Notes: a model not told the origin generated them from the letters alone. 64,000 bases of DNA from Myxococcales bacterium (GCA_012513515.1 JAAZCA010000029.1:124001-188000); one strand, 5' to 3'; counted from the stretch's first letter, positions 26,887-34,867 are shown. Numbers and translations: made by a program.

Positions 26887-27648
26887 CTACCTTACTCGGC
26901 CAAGAAGGCGCAAGAACCCATCGAGAACAGTGATTGGATGCGGGGGACAACCCGGAATATAGAGGTCTACTGGTATCAATTTATCCACCCCGCCCTTTAC
27001 ATCCAAATGACCGATGAAGGGGCCGCCGGATATGGCACAGGCGCCCGATGCGATTACTATTTTTGGCGAAGGAATCGCGGCATATGTCTTTTCAAGCGCC
27101 AGCGCCATGTTGTTTGAAATTGGGCCGGTGACTAAAATCCCGTCGGCATGCCTTGGCGAAGCTACAAACTGAATTCCAAAGCGCCCGAGGTCGAATACTA
27201 TCGTCGAAAGAACGTTGATATCCGCCTCGCAGGCGTTGCATCCACCGGCGCTAACCTGCCTGAGCTTCAGCGAACGCCCGAAAAGACGAAGCATCTCTTT
27301 TTTCAATTTCTCCGCTAGGCGAAATTCCGCTTCACCGACGATAAGCCCCTCCCGCACACAGGAGGCCAACCGATAATCGCGAGTGAATTTTATCACTCCC
27401 TCGCCGCATTCCCTCTCGCAGTTTCCGCAGAAGATACATTTGCCAAGATCTATGGAAATTCGTCCTTCTCCGCTGCAGCTAAGCGCACCAACAGGACAGC
27501 TCTTGACGCAGAGGCCACAATCTTTTCCGCAGGCCGAATCATCTATCGAAGGCATGCCCCTGAATTTAGCGGGCAAATTCGGTTCAGCATCGGGAAATGC
27601 GACGGTCCAGCTTTTTTGCTGCAATCTGCTTCGAATTATCTTTAACAT
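26887..27648 (-). CDS. Ferredoxin-NuoB fusion: small subunit of the hydrogenase-4-like complex
   Basis: Residues 35-85 form a 2[4Fe-4S] ferredoxin domain (Cys40/44/47/51 and Cys71/74/77/81). Residues 125-253 form the NuoB/HyfI-type small subunit with proximal-cluster ligands Cys137, Cys140, Cys204 and Cys234 (GGCNACE, SGACAISGGP, PGCPPHP). In E. coli Hyf these are two proteins, HyfH and HyfI. The fusion provides three [4Fe-4S] clusters and is the last gene of the operon. All cluster ligands are intact, so the electron path is complete up to the site the large subunit has lost. Confidence 0.9.
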   Translation of the reverse strand: MLKIIRSRLQQKSWTVAFPDAEPNLPAKFRGMPSIDDSACGKDCGLCVKSCPVGALSCSGEGRISIDLGKCIFCGNCERECGEGVIKFTRDYRLASCVREGLIVGEAEFRLAEKLKKEMLRLFGRSLKLRQVSAGGCNACEADINVLSTIVFDLGRFGIQFVASPRHADGILVTGPISNNMALALEKTYAAIPSPKIVIASGACAISGGPFIGHLDVKGGVDKLIPVDLYIPGCPPHPITVLDGFLRLLGRVR

Positions 27649-27658
27649 ATCGCAAACC

Positions 27659-29110
27659 TCATAGATCGTATCCGCAGTATGAGAGGTTAAAGCTCTTATT
27701 GATCAGCGGAAAATCGGATATCTGTCCGTTGCGAAGCGCCATCTCAAGCCCGCTCCAGTTATGGAACGAGGGATCGACGATCTTATAAAAAGCGATCTTT
27801 CCATCTTTTCCGGTCCCGGCCACGTGGCAGATTTCGCCGCGCCACCCCTCGACCATCGAAACAACGAATGAATCCGGAATCAGAGGCCCAAGGTCGGATT
27901 TTACATCCCCTTCCGCCAGCGACTCGAGCTGATTTCTGATGAACTGCGCCGATTTCACAATCTCCAACCACCTGACGTAGGCGCGGGCGAAGACATCCCC
28001 CCTGTGCCATGTCGAAAGAGGGAGATGGGCGAATCTAAATATCCCCACTGGAAAATCGCTTCGCACGTCCATGGCAATACCTGCTGCACGCGCCGCAGGG
28101 CCGACTATCCCCAAAGCGCGGCATAATTCCTTAGGGAGATGACCTGTATCATCAAAGCGCGCAAGCACCGATGGGGAATCCCACAGAAGTTGCGCCGCCG
28201 ACTCTAAGTCACGCATATGGGCGTCGAGACTTTTAAGGATCGCGGAAATTTCGGAAGAACTCAGATCGAAAAGCACACCTCCAGGACGCAGGAGCCCCCT
28301 GCCAAAACGGCTTCCGCATATTCGGGCCTGCAGATTAAGGAAATCGCCGCGCAGCCTCCCGCAGTAGGATGAGGTCGGAAGGTATCCAACATCGCCCGCA
28401 AGAGCGCCGAGGTCGCCCGCATGGTTGGCGATGCGTTCGAGTTCAAGGGCAACCCCCCTGATCATCTGCGCTCTAAGGGGAACCCGGCAGTTAGCAAGCG
28501 ACTCCACAGCGTGACAGTACGCCGTAGAATGCCCTATGCTCGTATCCCCCGCTACGGTCTCCATATAATGAATAGTTCTTCTATCAGGTCCGCCGACTAT
28601 TCCCTTCTCGACGCCGCGATGCTGATAGCCTAGATGGATTTCAAGATTGAATACCTCCTCTCCGTGGCATTGAAACCTGAAGTGCCCCGGCTCTATGACG
28701 CCGGCATGAACAGGACCCACCGCAACCTCATGTACCCCTTCGCCTGAAAGTTCGTAATACTTATACCCTTCGCGCTTGCGCACGGGCTTGAGCCACGGAT
28801 GCCCCTTTGGCTCGGCACCGGTCTGTTCGAAAATTTCGCGCTCGAATATATGCGCCTGTGAACATTTTGGAGTGATGGAATCGTACGAACCCTTGACCGA
28901 CGTGCCGAATGCGGAGAGGATCCCCGTCTTGTCTTCCGACAGAACGGCGTAGATCATCACCGAACCGCCGGAGGACGGAAGACCAAACATCGCACTGATT
29001 CGGAGCCCTGAATCCGTTTCCTTTATTACCACCCTCTCGAAATCTTCATTGGAGATTATCGGCAAATCAGATTTCTTTATTACTTCGCAGTTTCTCAAAT
29101 CGGATCTCAT
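27659..29110 (-). CDS. Large subunit of hydrogenase-4-like (Ehr-type) complex, nickel ligands absent
   Basis: Residues 1-100 resemble NuoC and residues 125-483 resemble NuoD/HycE, the same fusion as HyfG. In HycE the [NiFe] site is bound by two CxxC motifs. Here the first aligns as TVAGDTSIGHSTAY, with A187 and T190 in place of the cysteines. The second aligns as DPSFHNW, with S448 and N451. The subunit therefore cannot bind Ni-Fe in the known way. EIHLGYQHRGVEKG (157-170) and the flanking fold are well kept, so it is not decaying. The start overlaps the upstream stop (ATGA). The catalytic substrate, if any, is unknown. Confidence 0.9.
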   Translation of the reverse strand: MRSDLRNCEVIKKSDLPIISNEDFERVVIKETDSGLRISAMFGLPSSGGSVMIYAVLSEDKTGILSAFGTSVKGSYDSITPKCSQAHIFEREIFEQTGAEPKGHPWLKPVRKREGYKYYELSGEGVHEVAVGPVHAGVIEPGHFRFQCHGEEVFNLEIHLGYQHRGVEKGIVGGPDRRTIHYMETVAGDTSIGHSTAYCHAVESLANCRVPLRAQMIRGVALELERIANHAGDLGALAGDVGYLPTSSYCGRLRGDFLNLQARICGSRFGRGLLRPGGVLFDLSSSEISAILKSLDAHMRDLESAAQLLWDSPSVLARFDDTGHLPKELCRALGIVGPAARAAGIAMDVRSDFPVGIFRFAHLPLSTWHRGDVFARAYVRWLEIVKSAQFIRNQLESLAEGDVKSDLGPLIPDSFVVSMVEGWRGEICHVAGTGKDGKIAFYKIVDPSFHNWSGLEMALRNGQISDFPLINKSFNLSYCGYDL

Positions 29111-30594
29111 CGTAAGCCTCCGAGTTCTCCGGCAGCCTCAAGAATAAGCGAAGTCAACGCATCGGGAATGCACAGACCCAAAATGAGCACAGCCAGCATC
29201 ATCACAACCGGAGGGATGAATGAAAGGATAGGCTCGCGGTTCACACGCTCGGCAGGCAGCTGGTCCATGTTCCCATATGCCATCTTGAAAAAGGGCCCTA
29301 CCATTCCCACGAAGACAACGGCCAGAAGCGCAAGATAGGCAACGGCGATGAAAATCCGATCCTGATCGACCATCCCCTTCAGTATCGAAAACTCGCTGAA
29401 GAAGGTGCCGAAGGGAGGAGAACCGGTGATCGCAAAAAAACCTGCCACCCATACCACACCGGAAACAGGCAAAAACCTCAGCACCCCTCTCACTTCAAGT
29501 GATGATTTTGACCTGTAGAAGGTGAGGATGTTTCCAGCAGTGAAAAACAGGGCAGCCTTGGCAAGGGAATGGTTAACCGCATGCAGCATGCTTCCGTAAA
29601 CAGCTATCCCCCCGATGCCCACACCTACCGCCAGTATCCCCATGTGTTCGACGCTGGAATACGCAAGCATCCTCTTGTAATCGTTTTGCCCGAGGATAAA
29701 GATCGCGGCGATCGCCATCGAGAAGATGCCGAAGATTATCAACAGATCGCGTCCTAACTGTCCCGCCCCCGCTGCATTGAGAAGCTGCTGCGCCCTGATA
29801 ATCCCCAAAAATGAGCAATTGAGAAGCGCGCCGGACAGAAGGGCCGATACGGCGGATGGAGACTCGCTATGAGCATCCGGTAGCCAGGTGTGCATCGGAG
29901 CAAGTCCCATCTTCGTTCCATATCCAACGATGAAAAGCAAAAAGGCCCCCTTCAGCCAGAAAATATTGATATGGCCAAGTGATGCCCTGTTCATGAGCGA
30001 TGATAAAACAAGTGAGCTGTGAAGACCCCCTTCCGACACAGCAACTGCAAGAAAAAAGTTGCCCAGCAAGGCGATCACGATTCCCACGGAGCAGATGAGC
30101 AAATATTTCCACGCGGCTTCCAGCGATCTCTTGTGCATATGATAATAGATAAGCGGCGCGCTAGCCAAAGTTGTCGCCTCCACACCCACCCAGATCATGC
30201 CAAACTGGAGACTGACGCAGACGAGCGTCATCGTGGAAAGAAAAAGCATCATGCATCCGCAATAGACCGACTCGCTGAAATCGATAAAGGTGGAGGATCC
30301 TTCGAAATCCCGCTTCTTTACAAGAGCTCCGGCGTTGCCGGATCCGACCCTGTATATCGTCGAAAAAAAGAAAAGAAAGCTGGCTACGCTCAAAAAGAGT
30401 AGCCCCAATGAATCGAGGGCAAACCACCCCTGATAGAATGGCGCGGGTCTCGTGTGCCAGCACCACACCACAAGAGAGAGATGAGCAAAGGCCGTCGATA
30501 TCATCAGCGCGCGGGCGGCATAGGCCTTCCTCATGAAGAAGGAAATGATTCCGGCCAAAGCTGGTAGAAGCACGAGTGCGAGTATCATATTCAT
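29107..30594 (-). CDS. Proton-pumping antiporter-like subunit, HyfF type
   Basis: A 495-residue protein with about 14 membrane helices of the NuoL/M/N family. GMIWVGVEATTL carries the conserved helix-5 Glu, and HTWLPDAHSESPSAVSALLSGAL and the VEHMGILAVGVGIGG segment are typical of HyfF. It should form part of the ion-translocating arm. The ATG at 30594 overlaps the stop of the HyfE-like gene (TGATG), with AAGGA just upstream, so translation is coupled. Confidence 0.92.
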   Translation of the reverse strand: MNMILALVLLPALAGIISFFMRKAYAARALMISTAFAHLSLVVWCWHTRPAPFYQGWFALDSLGLLFLSVASFLFFFSTIYRVGSGNAGALVKKRDFEGSSTFIDFSESVYCGCMMLFLSTMTLVCVSLQFGMIWVGVEATTLASAPLIYYHMHKRSLEAAWKYLLICSVGIVIALLGNFFLAVAVSEGGLHSSLVLSSLMNRASLGHINIFWLKGAFLLFIVGYGTKMGLAPMHTWLPDAHSESPSAVSALLSGALLNCSFLGIIRAQQLLNAAGAGQLGRDLLIIFGIFSMAIAAIFILGQNDYKRMLAYSSVEHMGILAVGVGIGGIAVYGSMLHAVNHSLAKAALFFTAGNILTFYRSKSSLEVRGVLRFLPVSGVVWVAGFFAITGSPPFGTFFSEFSILKGMVDQDRIFIAVAYLALLAVVFVGMVGPFFKMAYGNMDQLPAERVNREPILSFIPPVVMMLAVLILGLCIPDALTSLILEAAGELGGLR

Positions 30595-31238
30595 CAATCC
30601 TTGAGAGCCGACAGAAGAGAGGTGTCGGTTCCATCATACTCCCTGTGTATGTGATAGACGGCAAGCCCCATAACGCTTACCGCAAGCAGCGCATCAATGA
30701 GGATTCCAAGCTCGACGATCATCCCCGCTTCTATATCCAGCGCAAATCCGAAGGCGAAAATACCGTTCTCGAGAATTATATAACCCAGAATCTGGTTTAT
30801 TGCTTTTCTTCTGGCTACTATGAAGAATAGTCCGATCAGCATGGTGGAAAGTGCAACTGCGAGGGCGAGAACCGAATGCATATGCCCCACGGCCGGAACC
30901 CTAGAGGCGAGCCAGAGGGATATTATGAATAGAGCAACACCGATGAGAACGGAAACCGTATACCCGACTATAGGCTCTATCTCCCTTCTAAGATTCGTGC
31001 TGGAGAGCACCCTGTTTAGCAAGAAGGGAAAGAGAAAACCCTTAAGCGCTATACTGACAAATGATATGAGATAGGCTCTGAAGAGCTCCCCCTCCGAATG
31101 GGCAAAAATAGGAATCAACCCCAAGAGAATTCCCTGCACGGCCACAACTCGTATCGACGAACGAATTCTGGATGTCACCAGCAGATAAAGATTTGCCAGA
31201 ACCAAAAGTATGAGTATGGAATCTATCGCGCTCTTCAC
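30594..31238 (-). CDS. HyfE-like membrane subunit (NuoK-related)
   Basis: A 214-residue membrane protein of six to seven helices. Its signature ARRKAINQILGYIILENG (about residues 142-159) is the HyfE/NuoK motif with the conserved Glu. It lies between the HyfC-like gene (4-base gap) and the HyfF-like gene (overlapping stop and start) and would complete the membrane arm. Confidence 0.92.
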   Translation of the reverse strand: MKSAIDSILILLVLANLYLLVTSRIRSSIRVVAVQGILLGLIPIFAHSEGELFRAYLISFVSIALKGFLFPFLLNRVLSSTNLRREIEPIVGYTVSVLIGVALFIISLWLASRVPAVGHMHSVLALAVALSTMLIGLFFIVARRKAINQILGYIILENGIFAFGFALDIEAGMIVELGILIDALLAVSVMGLAVYHIHREYDGTDTSLLSALKD

Positions 31239-31242
31239 AAAT

Positions 31243-32160
31243 TCACCCCAATAAAAAAGAAATGAGAAAAGCCAGCATTGCCACAGAAGCAGCTCCGCTC
31301 AAAAGCTGCGGCACGCGCATCATCTTCAACCTCGCCATCGTGGATTCAACAACGCCTACGGCTATCGCCGTGATGAATATAATAGATATACTCGATAGCA
31401 GGGAAAGTGCACAACTGGAGGAACTGGAAGGAAATATCACGCCGCCGAAGAGCGATGAGAAGATCCACAATTTCAAAGCCGCACCATAAGTTATAAAGGC
31501 GAGATCAGGTCCGCCCAAATCCAACACCATAACCTCATGGATCATGGTCAGCTCGAGATGGGTATTTGGATCGTCAATCGGTATCCTGGAATTTTCAGCC
31601 AGAAGCACTATGAACAGAACCACGGCCGCAAGGAATATCGCCATACCATGCCCTCCCCAGGAAGAGGCCAGTCCGGAATATATTCCGGAGAGGGAAAAAG
31701 AATCGGATACCCTCGCAAGAGTGAGCAGTGATATCATAAGCGTCGGCTCGGCCAGCGCTGAAAACATGACATCGCGTGAAGCCCCCATCCCTTCAAAACT
31801 TGAACCGGCATCGAGAGCGCTTAGCACTACGAAGAATCTGGCTACTCCGAGAAGATAAGCAAAGAGTATCAGATCGCCTGAAAAGGAGAGGAATGATGCG
31901 CCTCCTCCCAGAGGGAGCAGCGATAGAGAGATCATCACCGCAACGAGTGAAATCGCAGGCCCTATTTTGGAGATCCAGGTGGCGCTCCAGCTGATCACCG
32001 CACCTTTCCTGAGAAGTTTTATTATGTCATAGTAATTCTGGAGCAAGGGAGCCCCCTTGCGACCAGCAAACTTCGCCTTGGTTCTGTTGATGATGCCGGG
32101 CACAAGAGGTGCCAGGACAAGAGCTGCTGCAATATTTATCAAACCAATCATATTCATCAT
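31243..32160 (-). CDS. HyfC/HycD-like membrane anchor subunit (NuoH family)
   Basis: A 305-residue membrane protein. The NuoH-family loop FAGRKGAPLLQNYYDIIKLL lies near residues 28-47, and IPIDDPNTHLELTMIHEVMV carries the conserved acidic residues at the interface with the peripheral arm. The ATG at 32160 overlaps the stop of the upstream HyfB-like gene (ATGA), with GGTGGA before it. A longer frame to 32247 would lie inside that gene and is rejected. Confidence 0.93.
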   Translation of the reverse strand: MMNMIGLINIAAALVLAPLVPGIINRTKAKFAGRKGAPLLQNYYDIIKLLRKGAVISWSATWISKIGPAISLVAVMISLSLLPLGGGASFLSFSGDLILFAYLLGVARFFVVLSALDAGSSFEGMGASRDVMFSALAEPTLMISLLTLARVSDSFSLSGIYSGLASSWGGHGMAIFLAAVVLFIVLLAENSRIPIDDPNTHLELTMIHEVMVLDLGGPDLAFITYGAALKLWIFSSLFGGVIFPSSSSSCALSLLSSISIIFITAIAVGVVESTMARLKMMRVPQLLSGAASVAMLAFLISFLLG

Positions 32161-34169
32161 AGTCCACCAAGCTTCCATAGAAGCAAAGCGAGCAAAGTGA
32201 ATGCTATATAAAGGATGTACAGATGCACGCTCCCATTTTGCAGCCACCTGAACGCGAATGCAGTTTTTTGGATAAACTTAAAGAGTGGAGCAAAGATCCC
32301 CTCTCTGAAGATGTCAGCAGGATGCGCCTCGTAGGATCCGCCATCCGGAAAAAAATCCTTCAGGACCGGAGGCGAAGTCCTGATTCTCACCAGCGATTTA
32401 AAAAGGCCGACGAGCGGAGCGGCGAATGACGATGCCGTGTACTGCATTTTAGGAGATGGTAGCTCATATCCGCAATCCCACGTCGGAGAAGTTGTCACCT
32501 CTCGCCTGCGGAGCAACCGCTTTCTCAAATACATCACCGCACCTGTAAGAAATATCAGCACAGTGGCAGCAGAAGCGACAACTATCATCGGCCATCGTGC
32601 AAATGAAAGAGCGCTGCCAGCAGATTCACCATCCAGGGATATGGAAGAAACAAGGACGGGAATCATCAAACCCAAAATTAGAGGACCGCAGAGTCCTATG
32701 AAAGCACAAGCGCCGGACAGGACGATCATAGGCAGACGCATGGCCATCGGGACTTCGGAGGACTTCGATGCCCCCTCTTCGCGTGGCTCACCTAAAAACA
32801 CAACGCCAAAGGCCTTTGCAAAACACGCCGATGCCAGCCCTCCTATTAACGCCAAGCCTGCGATGGTTATTAAAGCCGGAACAAAACTCCAGATCCCTGC
32901 AAGGTTTGAGGCTGAAAGATGTGAAATGTACAATATCGCTGAAAGATAGATCAGCAACTCACTTACAAAACCATTGAGCGGAGGAAGCCCTGCAATAGCA
33001 ACCGAGCCAACAAGGAAGGAAGCCCCGGTGACCGGCATGCGTTTCAGGAGACCGCCGAGACGATCTATCGAGGTCGTTCGGGTCGAGTACAAAACCGAGC
33101 CGGCGCCAAGAAAGAGCAAGCCCTTGAAAAGGGCGTGATTAAGAACGTGCAGAAGAGCTCCGGCAAAACCAAGCGCAGCGACGACATTCGCCCCACTGGC
33201 CACACCAACAGTACCGATTCCGATTCCAAGAAATATGATCCCGATATTTTCAACACTGTGATAAGCAAGAAGCGACTTCAGATCGTGCTGCGCAAGCGCG
33301 TACAAAACGCCAAGAACGCCGGAGGTCAAGCCGATGAAAATAAGCAGGTACCCCAACCAGATATGATCGAACCCAAAAAATATCATCATTCTAAGCAGGC
33401 CGTATATACCGGTCTTTATCATCACCCCCGACATTATCGCGGATATATGCGAGGGCGCGGCGGGATGGGCTTCCGGAAGCCATACGTGAAGCGGTATGAC
33501 ACCGGCCTTGCTGCCAAACCCCACCACCGCCAGAAGGAACATCCCAAAAAGTTCCGGGCTAGCGAGCGAGGACAACGTGCCCCATTCGGAAAAATTGAAG
33601 CTGCCAGCCCTGACTCCCGCGATCGCAAAAAACAGGAACAAAAATGCCGTCCCTATGTGCGTAGCCACGAGATAGGTCCATCCAGCTGACCTGACATTTT
33701 TCCTTTCACTGTTGAAACAGACCAGAAAAAATGAGGAAAGTGCCATTATTTCCCACGCAAAGAGAAATAAAATTGCGTTGCGCGCGATGATGACTGCGAC
33801 CATGCTAACGATCAGAAGCGACAGATAAAACCATGAGGAGCCGGTCGATTTCCTACCCGCAAGCTCAGGCAGATATCTGGCCCCATAGAGGGCTGAAAGA
33901 GCCGACAGTATAAAAACGGGGATCAGAAATAAGGCCGAAAGAGAATCGATTCCGACATCGAAAGATCCGTAAGGGACGCTCCATTCGGCAGAAAAACTCA
34001 ACGGGACTGAAGCAAAGAGCGCAGCAAAAACCTGAAAAAGACCCAAGATAGCGCCCAAAGAAATACCAAGCGAGGAAAAGAGAGCGGCTTTTCTGGAAGA
34101 ATTACCCAGCAGAAGTGAAAGCACTCCCCCCAATAGGATGGCGACGATGGAAAATCCTGTCAGGATCAT
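32157..34169 (-). CDS. Proton-pumping antiporter-like subunit, HyfB type
   Basis: A 670-residue member of the NuoL/M family with about 16 helices and a long C-terminal part after residue 500, as in HyfB/HycC. Recognisable segments are FAWEIMALSSFFLV with the helix-5 Glu, HVWLPEAHPAAPSHISAIMSG, and HDLKSLLAYHSVENIG. Its ATG overlaps the stop of the HTH-EIIA gene (ATGA). With the HyfF-like gene, the complex has two antiporter-like modules. Confidence 0.93.
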   Translation of the reverse strand: MILTGFSIVAILLGGVLSLLLGNSSRKAALFSSLGISLGAILGLFQVFAALFASVPLSFSAEWSVPYGSFDVGIDSLSALFLIPVFILSALSALYGARYLPELAGRKSTGSSWFYLSLLIVSMVAVIIARNAILFLFAWEIMALSSFFLVCFNSERKNVRSAGWTYLVATHIGTAFLFLFFAIAGVRAGSFNFSEWGTLSSLASPELFGMFLLAVVGFGSKAGVIPLHVWLPEAHPAAPSHISAIMSGVMIKTGIYGLLRMMIFFGFDHIWLGYLLIFIGLTSGVLGVLYALAQHDLKSLLAYHSVENIGIIFLGIGIGTVGVASGANVVAALGFAGALLHVLNHALFKGLLFLGAGSVLYSTRTTSIDRLGGLLKRMPVTGASFLVGSVAIAGLPPLNGFVSELLIYLSAILYISHLSASNLAGIWSFVPALITIAGLALIGGLASACFAKAFGVVFLGEPREEGASKSSEVPMAMRLPMIVLSGACAFIGLCGPLILGLMIPVLVSSISLDGESAGSALSFARWPMIVVASAATVLIFLTGAVMYLRKRLLRRREVTTSPTWDCGYELPSPKMQYTASSFAAPLVGLFKSLVRIRTSPPVLKDFFPDGGSYEAHPADIFREGIFAPLFKFIQKTAFAFRWLQNGSVHLYILYIAFTLLALLLWKLGGL

Positions 34170-34867
34170 AGCGCCACCTCATCTTTCTTTATCTTGCAGG
34201 GGAAGGATTCTATTCTTTCCAGATCTCCGAACAAAAGCTCTGGAGAGGCGCGGTCGATGAGAAGCTTTCTGAATGAATCGTCATGAATAGCAAGGCTAAT
34301 CATGGAAAGAAGATGCAGATGCTCCCTTATAGTGTTGCTGATTATAAGGAAAAAGATATCCACGGGCTTTTTGTCGGCAGCACCGAAGTCAATCGGATGT
34401 TCCATGAAACAAAGGGATACGCTGGAATCGGAGCGACCAAGCACTATGGGCTTTCTAGGGTGCGGAATAGCTATCCCATAGCCAACTCCGGTAGAACCCA
34501 ACCCTTCCCTGGATAGAAGAAGCTGATACAGAAATTCTTCATCCACGTCATTTGGAATGCGCAAAGAGGAGACTATCGAACGAAGTGCAGACTCCCTATC
34601 GGTTCCCTTGAGGCCGTAGTGAATTCCACCGAGACGCAATGCCTTTGAAAATGACGAAAAATCGAAACCGATATCATCCGAAGATCTGAGAGCAGCCCTT
34701 GAAAGGCGGAGCCCTCTCACCGATGCCCAGTCAAGCACCTCGGATTTTATAAATCTGTTTTGCCCCTTCACACTATAGCAAGGCAGACCGTCACTCTTCA
34801 CCCATCTGGAAACGGTGCCCTCGGAAACATCGAACATATCGGCAATATCACTAATTGTGAGTCTCAT
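34166..34867 (-). CDS. Helix-turn-helix/PTS-EIIA fusion, first gene of the hydrogenase-like operon
   Basis: Residues 1-50 are an excisionase/MerR-type helix-turn-helix (ISDIADMFDVSEGTVSRWV, ending NRFIKSEVLDWA). Residues 70-225 are a fructose-type EIIA domain, in which H136 (GIAIPHPRKP) sits where EIIA is phosphorylated by HPr. No PTS permease is present. Such nitrogen- or fructose-type EIIA domains commonly act as regulatory phosphate receivers. The stop overlaps the next start (ATGA), so the protein is made in step with the complex. It could autoregulate the operon or link it to energy or PTS status; both are inference. Confidence 0.88.
   Translation of the reverse strand: MRLTISDIADMFDVSEGTVSRWVKSDGLPCYSVKGQNRFIKSEVLDWASVRGLRLSRAALRSSDDIGFDFSSFSKALRLGGIHYGLKGTDRESALRSIVSSLRIPNDVDEEFLYQLLLSREGLGSTGVGYGIAIPHPRKPIVLGRSDSSVSLCFMEHPIDFGAADKKPVDIFFLIISNTIREHLHLLSMISLAIHDDSFRKLLIDRASPELLFGDLERIESFPCKIKKDEVAL

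Follow-up and report, generated by a model that had tools for sequence, protein, structure and literature searches.

An intact Ehr cassette of a Myxococcales bacterium with a nickel-free, invariant pocket and a possible role as a ferredoxin-linked cation pump

A 64,000-nucleotide stretch of a Myxococcales bacterium genome (JAAZCA010000029.1:124001-188000; hereafter the window, in which all coordinates are counted) contains a compact seven-gene cassette which is an intact member of the already named Ehr (Ech-hydrogenase-related) family. Its large subunit, EhrL, has none of the four nickel-ligating cysteines of group 4 [NiFe] hydrogenases, is under strong purifying selection rather than in decay, and carries in their place residues conserved throughout the family. 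Our preferred interpretation, held with moderate confidence, is that the cassette encodes an intact and selected complex acting as a ferredoxin-linked cation pump, with a small acceptor in the rebuilt pocket. Ehr complexes have been known since 2005 and occur in hundreds of genomes from many phyla, with no assigned reaction. They are treated in PMC6349859, PMC7894505 and PMC10284858, and PMC6688271 cites Coppi 2005 and Marreiros 2013 on them.

The large-subunit gene and the codons of its pocket are located as follows.

27659..29110, minus strand: ehrL, large subunit, fused 30-kDa and 49-kDa domains (483 aa; PF00346 and PF00329; best PDB match, HycE)
28691..28693, minus strand: EhrL E140, equivalent of MbhL E21 (the proton-reduction glutamate); the adjoining I139 stands in place of Nqo4 H38
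28541..28552, minus strand: EhrL AGDT, residues 187-190, in place of the hydrogenase N-terminal CxxC
27827..27829, minus strand: EhrL C428, the partner of C479 in most family members
27662..27682, minus strand: EhrL SYCGYDL-COOH, residues 477-483, in place of the C-terminal CxxC
27674..27676, minus strand: EhrL C479 codon

Sequence alignment with HycE places A187, T190, S477 and G480 of EhrL at the positions of C241, C244, C531 and C534. The original prediction, made from the window alone, held that no nickel ligand is left and that the N-terminal pair has become A187/T190; the alignment agrees on both counts, with CGIC of HycE matched to AGDT. Its C-terminal pair, S448/N451, was misassigned, the correct positions being S477 and G480 at the extreme C-terminus, but this error leaves the overall conclusion unchanged. 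S448 and N451, rejected as ligand sites by sequence and structure alignments, belong to a separate conserved stretch, DPSFHN, in which N451 corresponds to HycE N505. The predicted structure of EhrL (predicted local distance difference test, pLDDT, 88; predicted template modelling score, pTM, 0.90) superposes on HycE (7z0s_E) over 471 residues with a Z score of 41.9, and the termination of this alignment at residue 477 of the model and 531 of HycE supports the corrected register; in the model, which is of the isolated chain, pocket segments 131-141 and 479-483 have pLDDT values below 50. The last residue of EhrL aligns with HycE R537. Since HycI trims HycE after R537, EhrL is made in the processed form from the start; it has neither the four nickel cysteines nor the C-terminal extension removed during maturation of group 4 [NiFe] hydrogenases.

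Among 81 aligned EhrL-type large subunits, none keeps the four nickel-position cysteines. By contrast, I139, E140, G188, D189, H194, R424, N471-K472-S473-F474, S477, Y478, G480, D482 and the C-terminal residue L483 are invariant in all 81, a pattern which shows the conserved alternative pocket that the original prediction had named as supporting evidence. E140 and R424 align with the glutamate and arginine beside the hydrogenase active site. In PMC7684303, MbhL E21 is assigned a role in proton reduction, and H38 and Y87 of Nqo4 are described as quinone residues; the equivalents of the latter two, the headgroup residues of complex I, are invariantly replaced in the Ehr family by I139 and G188, respectively. 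Both C428 and C479 are present in 65 of the 81 proteins, whereas 16 lack C428 and 7 have alanine at position 479, the latter 7 never carrying C428 (counts uncorrected for kinship). The possibility that the cysteines had shifted by a few residues finds weak support in C479, which precedes the second C-terminal position by one, but this cysteine, although frequent, is not universal and has no second cysteine with which to form a CxxC; a shifted motif was therefore rejected. Judged from its residues, Ehr combines a hydrogenase-like iron-sulfur wire with acid/base residues and lacks nickel, and the invariant pocket residues constrain which substrates can be proposed.

A search across named genomes yielded at least 573 related stretches, 80 of which were kept as loci; these come from Thermodesulfobacteriota (including Geobacter and Geomonas), Myxococcota, Planctomycetota, Verrucomicrobiota, Lentisphaerota, Elusimicrobiota, Omnitrophota, Spirochaetota, Acidobacteriota, Gemmatimonadota and other phyla. 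Clear orthologues are present in 17 of the 60 relatives searched, 16 of which entered alignment A1, with identities of 40-61%. In a maximum-likelihood tree of 46 rows, which has some long branches and a bootstrap not fully settled and does not include the large subunits of G. sulfurreducens, Fpo, Mbx and MBS, the window EhrL groups with Geobacter and Geomonas within an Ehr group separated from group 4 hydrogenases and complex I by a 100/100 branch. The assignment to an Ehr-type complex, already made in the original prediction, is thus supported by both tree and sequence identity: the protein is a group 4 homologue free of nickel ligands, it falls with Geobacter-type EhrL, and HyfB-, HyfC-, HyfE- and HyfF-like subunits are encoded with EhrL and EhrS in one cassette.

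The ratio of nonsynonymous to synonymous substitution rates (dN/dS) of ehrL in close pairs is 0.04-0.20, with 0.05 for a Geobacteraceae pair (L080/L081); for ehrA, some rows give ratios close to 1, an artefact of comparing non-orthologous antiporter genes. Geobacter Ehr has recently been called nonfunctional and drifting (PMC13194489, 2026), a view contradicted by the low dN/dS and the invariant replacement residues. Nor does EhrL have an intact large-subunit paralogue with preserved CxxC motifs of which it could be the decayed copy: it is the only Complex1_49kDa protein in its own genome (1.79 Mb, 99.3% complete; labelled G000).

The remaining genes and motifs of the cassette, as called from Pfam and NCBIfam profile matches, are listed below.

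34166..34867, minus strand: ehrR, helix-turn-helix domain (HTH_17, PF12728) fused to a phosphotransferase system (PTS) EIIA type 2 domain (PF00359); 233 aa; the gene overlaps the following one by 4 bp
34460..34462, minus strand: ehrR His136 codon, candidate phospho-acceptor of the EIIA domain, as suggested by the EIIA family
32157..34169, minus strand: ehrA, antiporter-type subunit resembling HyfB (670 aa; scores 590 bits against NCBIfam hydrogenase 4 subunit B, whose cut-off is 667)
31243..32247, minus strand: ehrB, HyfC/NuoH-like (Pfam NADHdh); start codon uncertain, the listed open reading frame overlapping ehrA by 91 bp
30594..31238, minus strand: ehrC, HyfE (NuoK)-like (214 aa; NCBIfam PRK11492, 96.8 bits, below the cut-off of 136)
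29107..30597, minus strand: ehrD, antiporter-type subunit resembling HyfF (496 aa; scores 337 bits against NCBIfam hydrogenase 4 subunit F, whose cut-off is 610)
26887..27648, minus strand: ehrS, small subunit in which a 2x[4Fe-4S] ferredoxin domain is joined to a NuoB domain (253 aa; Pfam)
27406..27531, minus strand: EhrS ferredoxin-domain ligands C40, C44, C47, C51, C71, C74, C77 and C81
27229..27240, minus strand: EhrS C137xxC140, proximal cluster with hydrogenase-type spacing; the remaining ligands are C204 and C234

The predicted operon at 26887-34867 was borne out in location and domain content; its genes all lie on the minus strand, and neighbouring genes overlap, or are separated, by a few bases. 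NCBIfam hydrogenase-4 models match its proteins strongly, yet below the models' own cut-offs. EhrS has all 12 iron-sulfur ligand cysteines (8 of the ferredoxin type and 4 of the proximal cluster), in line with the earlier claim of ten or more intact ligands; across core members, each ligand is present in 64-75 of 78 rows, some of the exceptions being gaps from incomplete rows. In the membrane arm, EhrA residues E140, K221, K298, H341, K349 and E404 are the same in E. coli HyfB and invariant among 64 relatives, and conserved charged residues are likewise found in EhrB (E167, E218, D225, E232 and E238), EhrC (E157, E176 and D182) and EhrD (E140, K229, K308 and K347). This agreement with E. coli Hyf matches the prediction that both antiporter-type subunits are intact. 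Most loci have two such subunits, and of the 56 loci with room upstream 13 have three; in a Verrucomicrobia metagenome-assembled genome, a second EhrA/EhrD-like antiporter pair follows the Ehr cassette (L065:12482-17427), perhaps as a tandem cassette.

The regulator EhrR retains His136, D165 and H183, which are conserved among 45 relatives (98% for His136), and the genome encodes one HPr. An HTH-EIIA regulator is present in 46 of the 80 Ehr loci, or in 37 of the 56 with room upstream, and the six structural genes have no other regular companion; the remaining recurring clusters of open reading frames have no member in the window, are encoded on the opposite strand in those shown and were taken as probable shadow frames. 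The conserved EIIA-type regulator offers an independent handle on when cells use Ehr. In two loci (L071 and L112), the regulator and an extra EhrA are encoded on the opposite strand, and the two seem to travel together.

Some relatives carry variant cassettes. Ehr-like cassettes on plasmids (L115:17556-24740, L116:6904-14066, L119:4908-12076 and L120:4161-11947, from Variovorax, Paraburkholderia, Rhizobium and Methylocalor) encode small subunits of 175-179 aa which consist of NuoB only, so that electron entry would be either missing or located elsewhere. The plasmid of Variovorax sp. PBL-E5 (L115:6860-24740) bears two different Ehr-like cassettes approximately 10 kb apart, only one of which has the ferredoxin domain in its small subunit. 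In Allomeiothermus silvanus, the four proximal-cluster cysteines of the small subunit (L117:13293-14165) are replaced by T/D/E/S and several ferredoxin-domain cysteines are also gone, the six-gene cassette being otherwise intact; this complex possibly no longer transfers electrons.

The gene content of G000 bears on the likely partners of Ehr. It includes a 1190-aa pyruvate:ferredoxin oxidoreductase scoring far above the cut-off, a second 2-oxoacid:ferredoxin oxidoreductase, a group A6 [FeFe] hydrogenase and Rnf genes. Searches of the genome returned no molybdopterin oxidoreductase (zero PF00384 proteins), no heme-copper oxidase (COX1) and no match to MqnA/MqnD or MenD. The organism looks like a ferredoxin-centred fermenter, for which self-made menaquinone is unlikely, and some of the published guesses on the Ehr partner are, on this gene content, ruled out here. 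The list of possible acceptors becomes correspondingly shorter.

We propose that ferredoxin, probably reduced by pyruvate:ferredoxin oxidoreductase, would feed electrons into EhrS at its ferredoxin domain; from there they would reach the hydrogenase-type proximal [4Fe-4S] cluster, which lies where EhrL and EhrS meet. A putative small, non-quinone acceptor would be reduced in the former NiFe cavity, assisted by the retained acid/base residues E140 and R424 and by the family-specific D189, S477, Y478 and D482. The energy released could be transmitted through the NuoH-like subunit to the two antiporter-type subunits, which would presumably export H+ or Na+; the complex might also operate in reverse. 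For the ferredoxin-driven pump suggested in the original prediction, the link to ferredoxin gains indirect support from the eight-ligand ferredoxin domain and the two 2-oxoacid:ferredoxin oxidoreductases. Several observations weigh against such a pump. No gene for a partner enzyme is conserved beside Ehr across the 80 loci, and the papers searched yielded no account of a purified Ehr. A single UbiA-family (MenA-like) prenyltransferase of G000, scoring below all MenA cut-offs, leaves some room for an imported or unusual quinone. In addition, with a sister clade devoid of the ferredoxin domain and one member devoid of the proximal cysteines, electron transfer may not be essential in every family member.

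The strongest competing explanation, which we nevertheless consider unlikely, is that Ehr is mainly an Mrp-like cation antiporter in which the cytoplasmic arm, instead of turning over an acceptor, responds to the redox state or to a ligand. The lack of a linked acceptor enzyme, the EIIA-type regulator heading the cassette, the retention of the gene set in Allomeiothermus despite the missing proximal cysteines and the plasmid-borne relatives all fit this idea, but the preservation of iron-sulfur ligands in nearly all core members speaks against it. Function as a short complex I, that is, a ferredoxin:quinone oxidoreductase, appears more doubtful still. The fold is shared with complex I, and five relatives (G012, G014, G019, G024 and G028) have MqnA/MqnD-family genes, which makes menaquinone synthesis by the futalosine route probable in them; however, these genes are absent from G000 and from the Ehr-bearing G001, G017 and G023, MenD is without any match in G000 (G017 has split ones below the cut-off), the headgroup residues H38/Y87 are invariantly I/G, and the proximal motif is CxxC instead of the CC of complex I.

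Chemistry at another metal or cofactor, bound by D189, S477, Y478 and D482 and sometimes by C428/C479, is suggested by the invariant polar residues at or near the old ligand positions and by the frequent pairing of the two cysteines, but their absence from part of the family (C479 from 7 and C428 from 16 proteins) and the lack of a maturation gene within the cassette (HypD/HypC were not searched for) make it improbable. A donor role for molybdenum/tungsten formate dehydrogenase, hypothesized in PMC6349859, has in its favour a published co-occurrence in Margulisbacteria/Saganbacteria, the higher abundance of Ehr on formate in Geobacter and its formate induction in G. sulfurreducens (PMC7894505). 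Yet PF00384 proteins are missing from both G000 and its Ehr-bearing relative G028 (88% complete), and no gene of the formate dehydrogenase type recurs within 10 kb across the 80 loci. The hypothesis as stated is inapplicable to G000, for which it is already refuted, barring a non-molybdopterin formate dehydrogenase, and we hold it very improbable. Least credible of all is that the locus is a decayed, nonfunctional hydrogenase, as argued for Geobacter Ehr (PMC13194489): the nickel ligands are gone and hydrogenase activity is not expected, but the selection on ehrL, including the L080/L081 pair, the invariance of the replacement residues in many phyla and the intact reading frames and cassette order argue against decay, and the selection already contradicts it.

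Returning to the ferredoxin-linked pump, we tentatively suggest that Ehr might stand as a separate functional class within the complex-I-type energy converters: its pocket, in which the old E140/R424 are joined by a new D189 and a C-terminal SYxGxDL, might act on a small acceptor other than H+, quinone or polysulfide, and the complex could serve an organism without complex I, its own menaquinone or molybdenum oxidoreductases.

Among known systems, the cassette closely resembles Geobacter Ehr (GSU0739-0745 type) in its structural subunit types, fused large subunit and absence of nickel ligands. EhrL shares 52% identity over its full length, as well as a tree group, with its counterparts in Geobacter argillaceus and Geomonas limicola. 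The window cassette has two antiporter-type subunits, whereas EhrA is present in one additional copy at the loci of Geobacter argillaceus and Geomonas (the G. sulfurreducens genes lie outside this comparison). M. tuberculosis Rv0082-Rv0087 may be similar as well. With E. coli hydrogenase-4 and formate hydrogenlyase-1 (HyfG and HycE), Ehr shares the fold, the membrane subunits and their charges, the proximal CxxC and the glutamate and arginine adjacent to the active site, but all four nickel ligands are replaced, the C-terminal extension is absent and the HyfH-like domain lies inside the small subunit. The original description of a complete hydrogenase-4-like operon therefore holds for an Ehr cassette but not by the standard of E. 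coli hyf, relative to which it lacks HyfA, HyfD, HyfJ and any separate HyfH. Pyrococcus MBS, a sulfane sulfur reductase, is likewise hydrogenase-derived, ferredoxin-driven and without nickel (PMC7684303). However, MBS has lost the E21 equivalent and has a three-cysteine proximal cluster (PMC7684303; MbsJ compared by description), and it keeps two of the four nickel cysteines, whereas Ehr keeps E140 in 81/81 proteins and four proximal cysteines with CxxC spacing, and retains no nickel cysteine. Respiratory complex I (the NuoB/C/D/H/K/M core) has a homologous core fold and also lacks all four nickel cysteines; it differs from Ehr in H38/Y87, where Ehr has I139/G188, and in its adjacent proximal cysteines (PMC7684303), where Ehr has C137-x-x-C140. 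Ehr and Nuo stand apart in the tree, each on a 100/100 branch, which suggests that the nickel cysteines were lost independently in Ehr and complex I.

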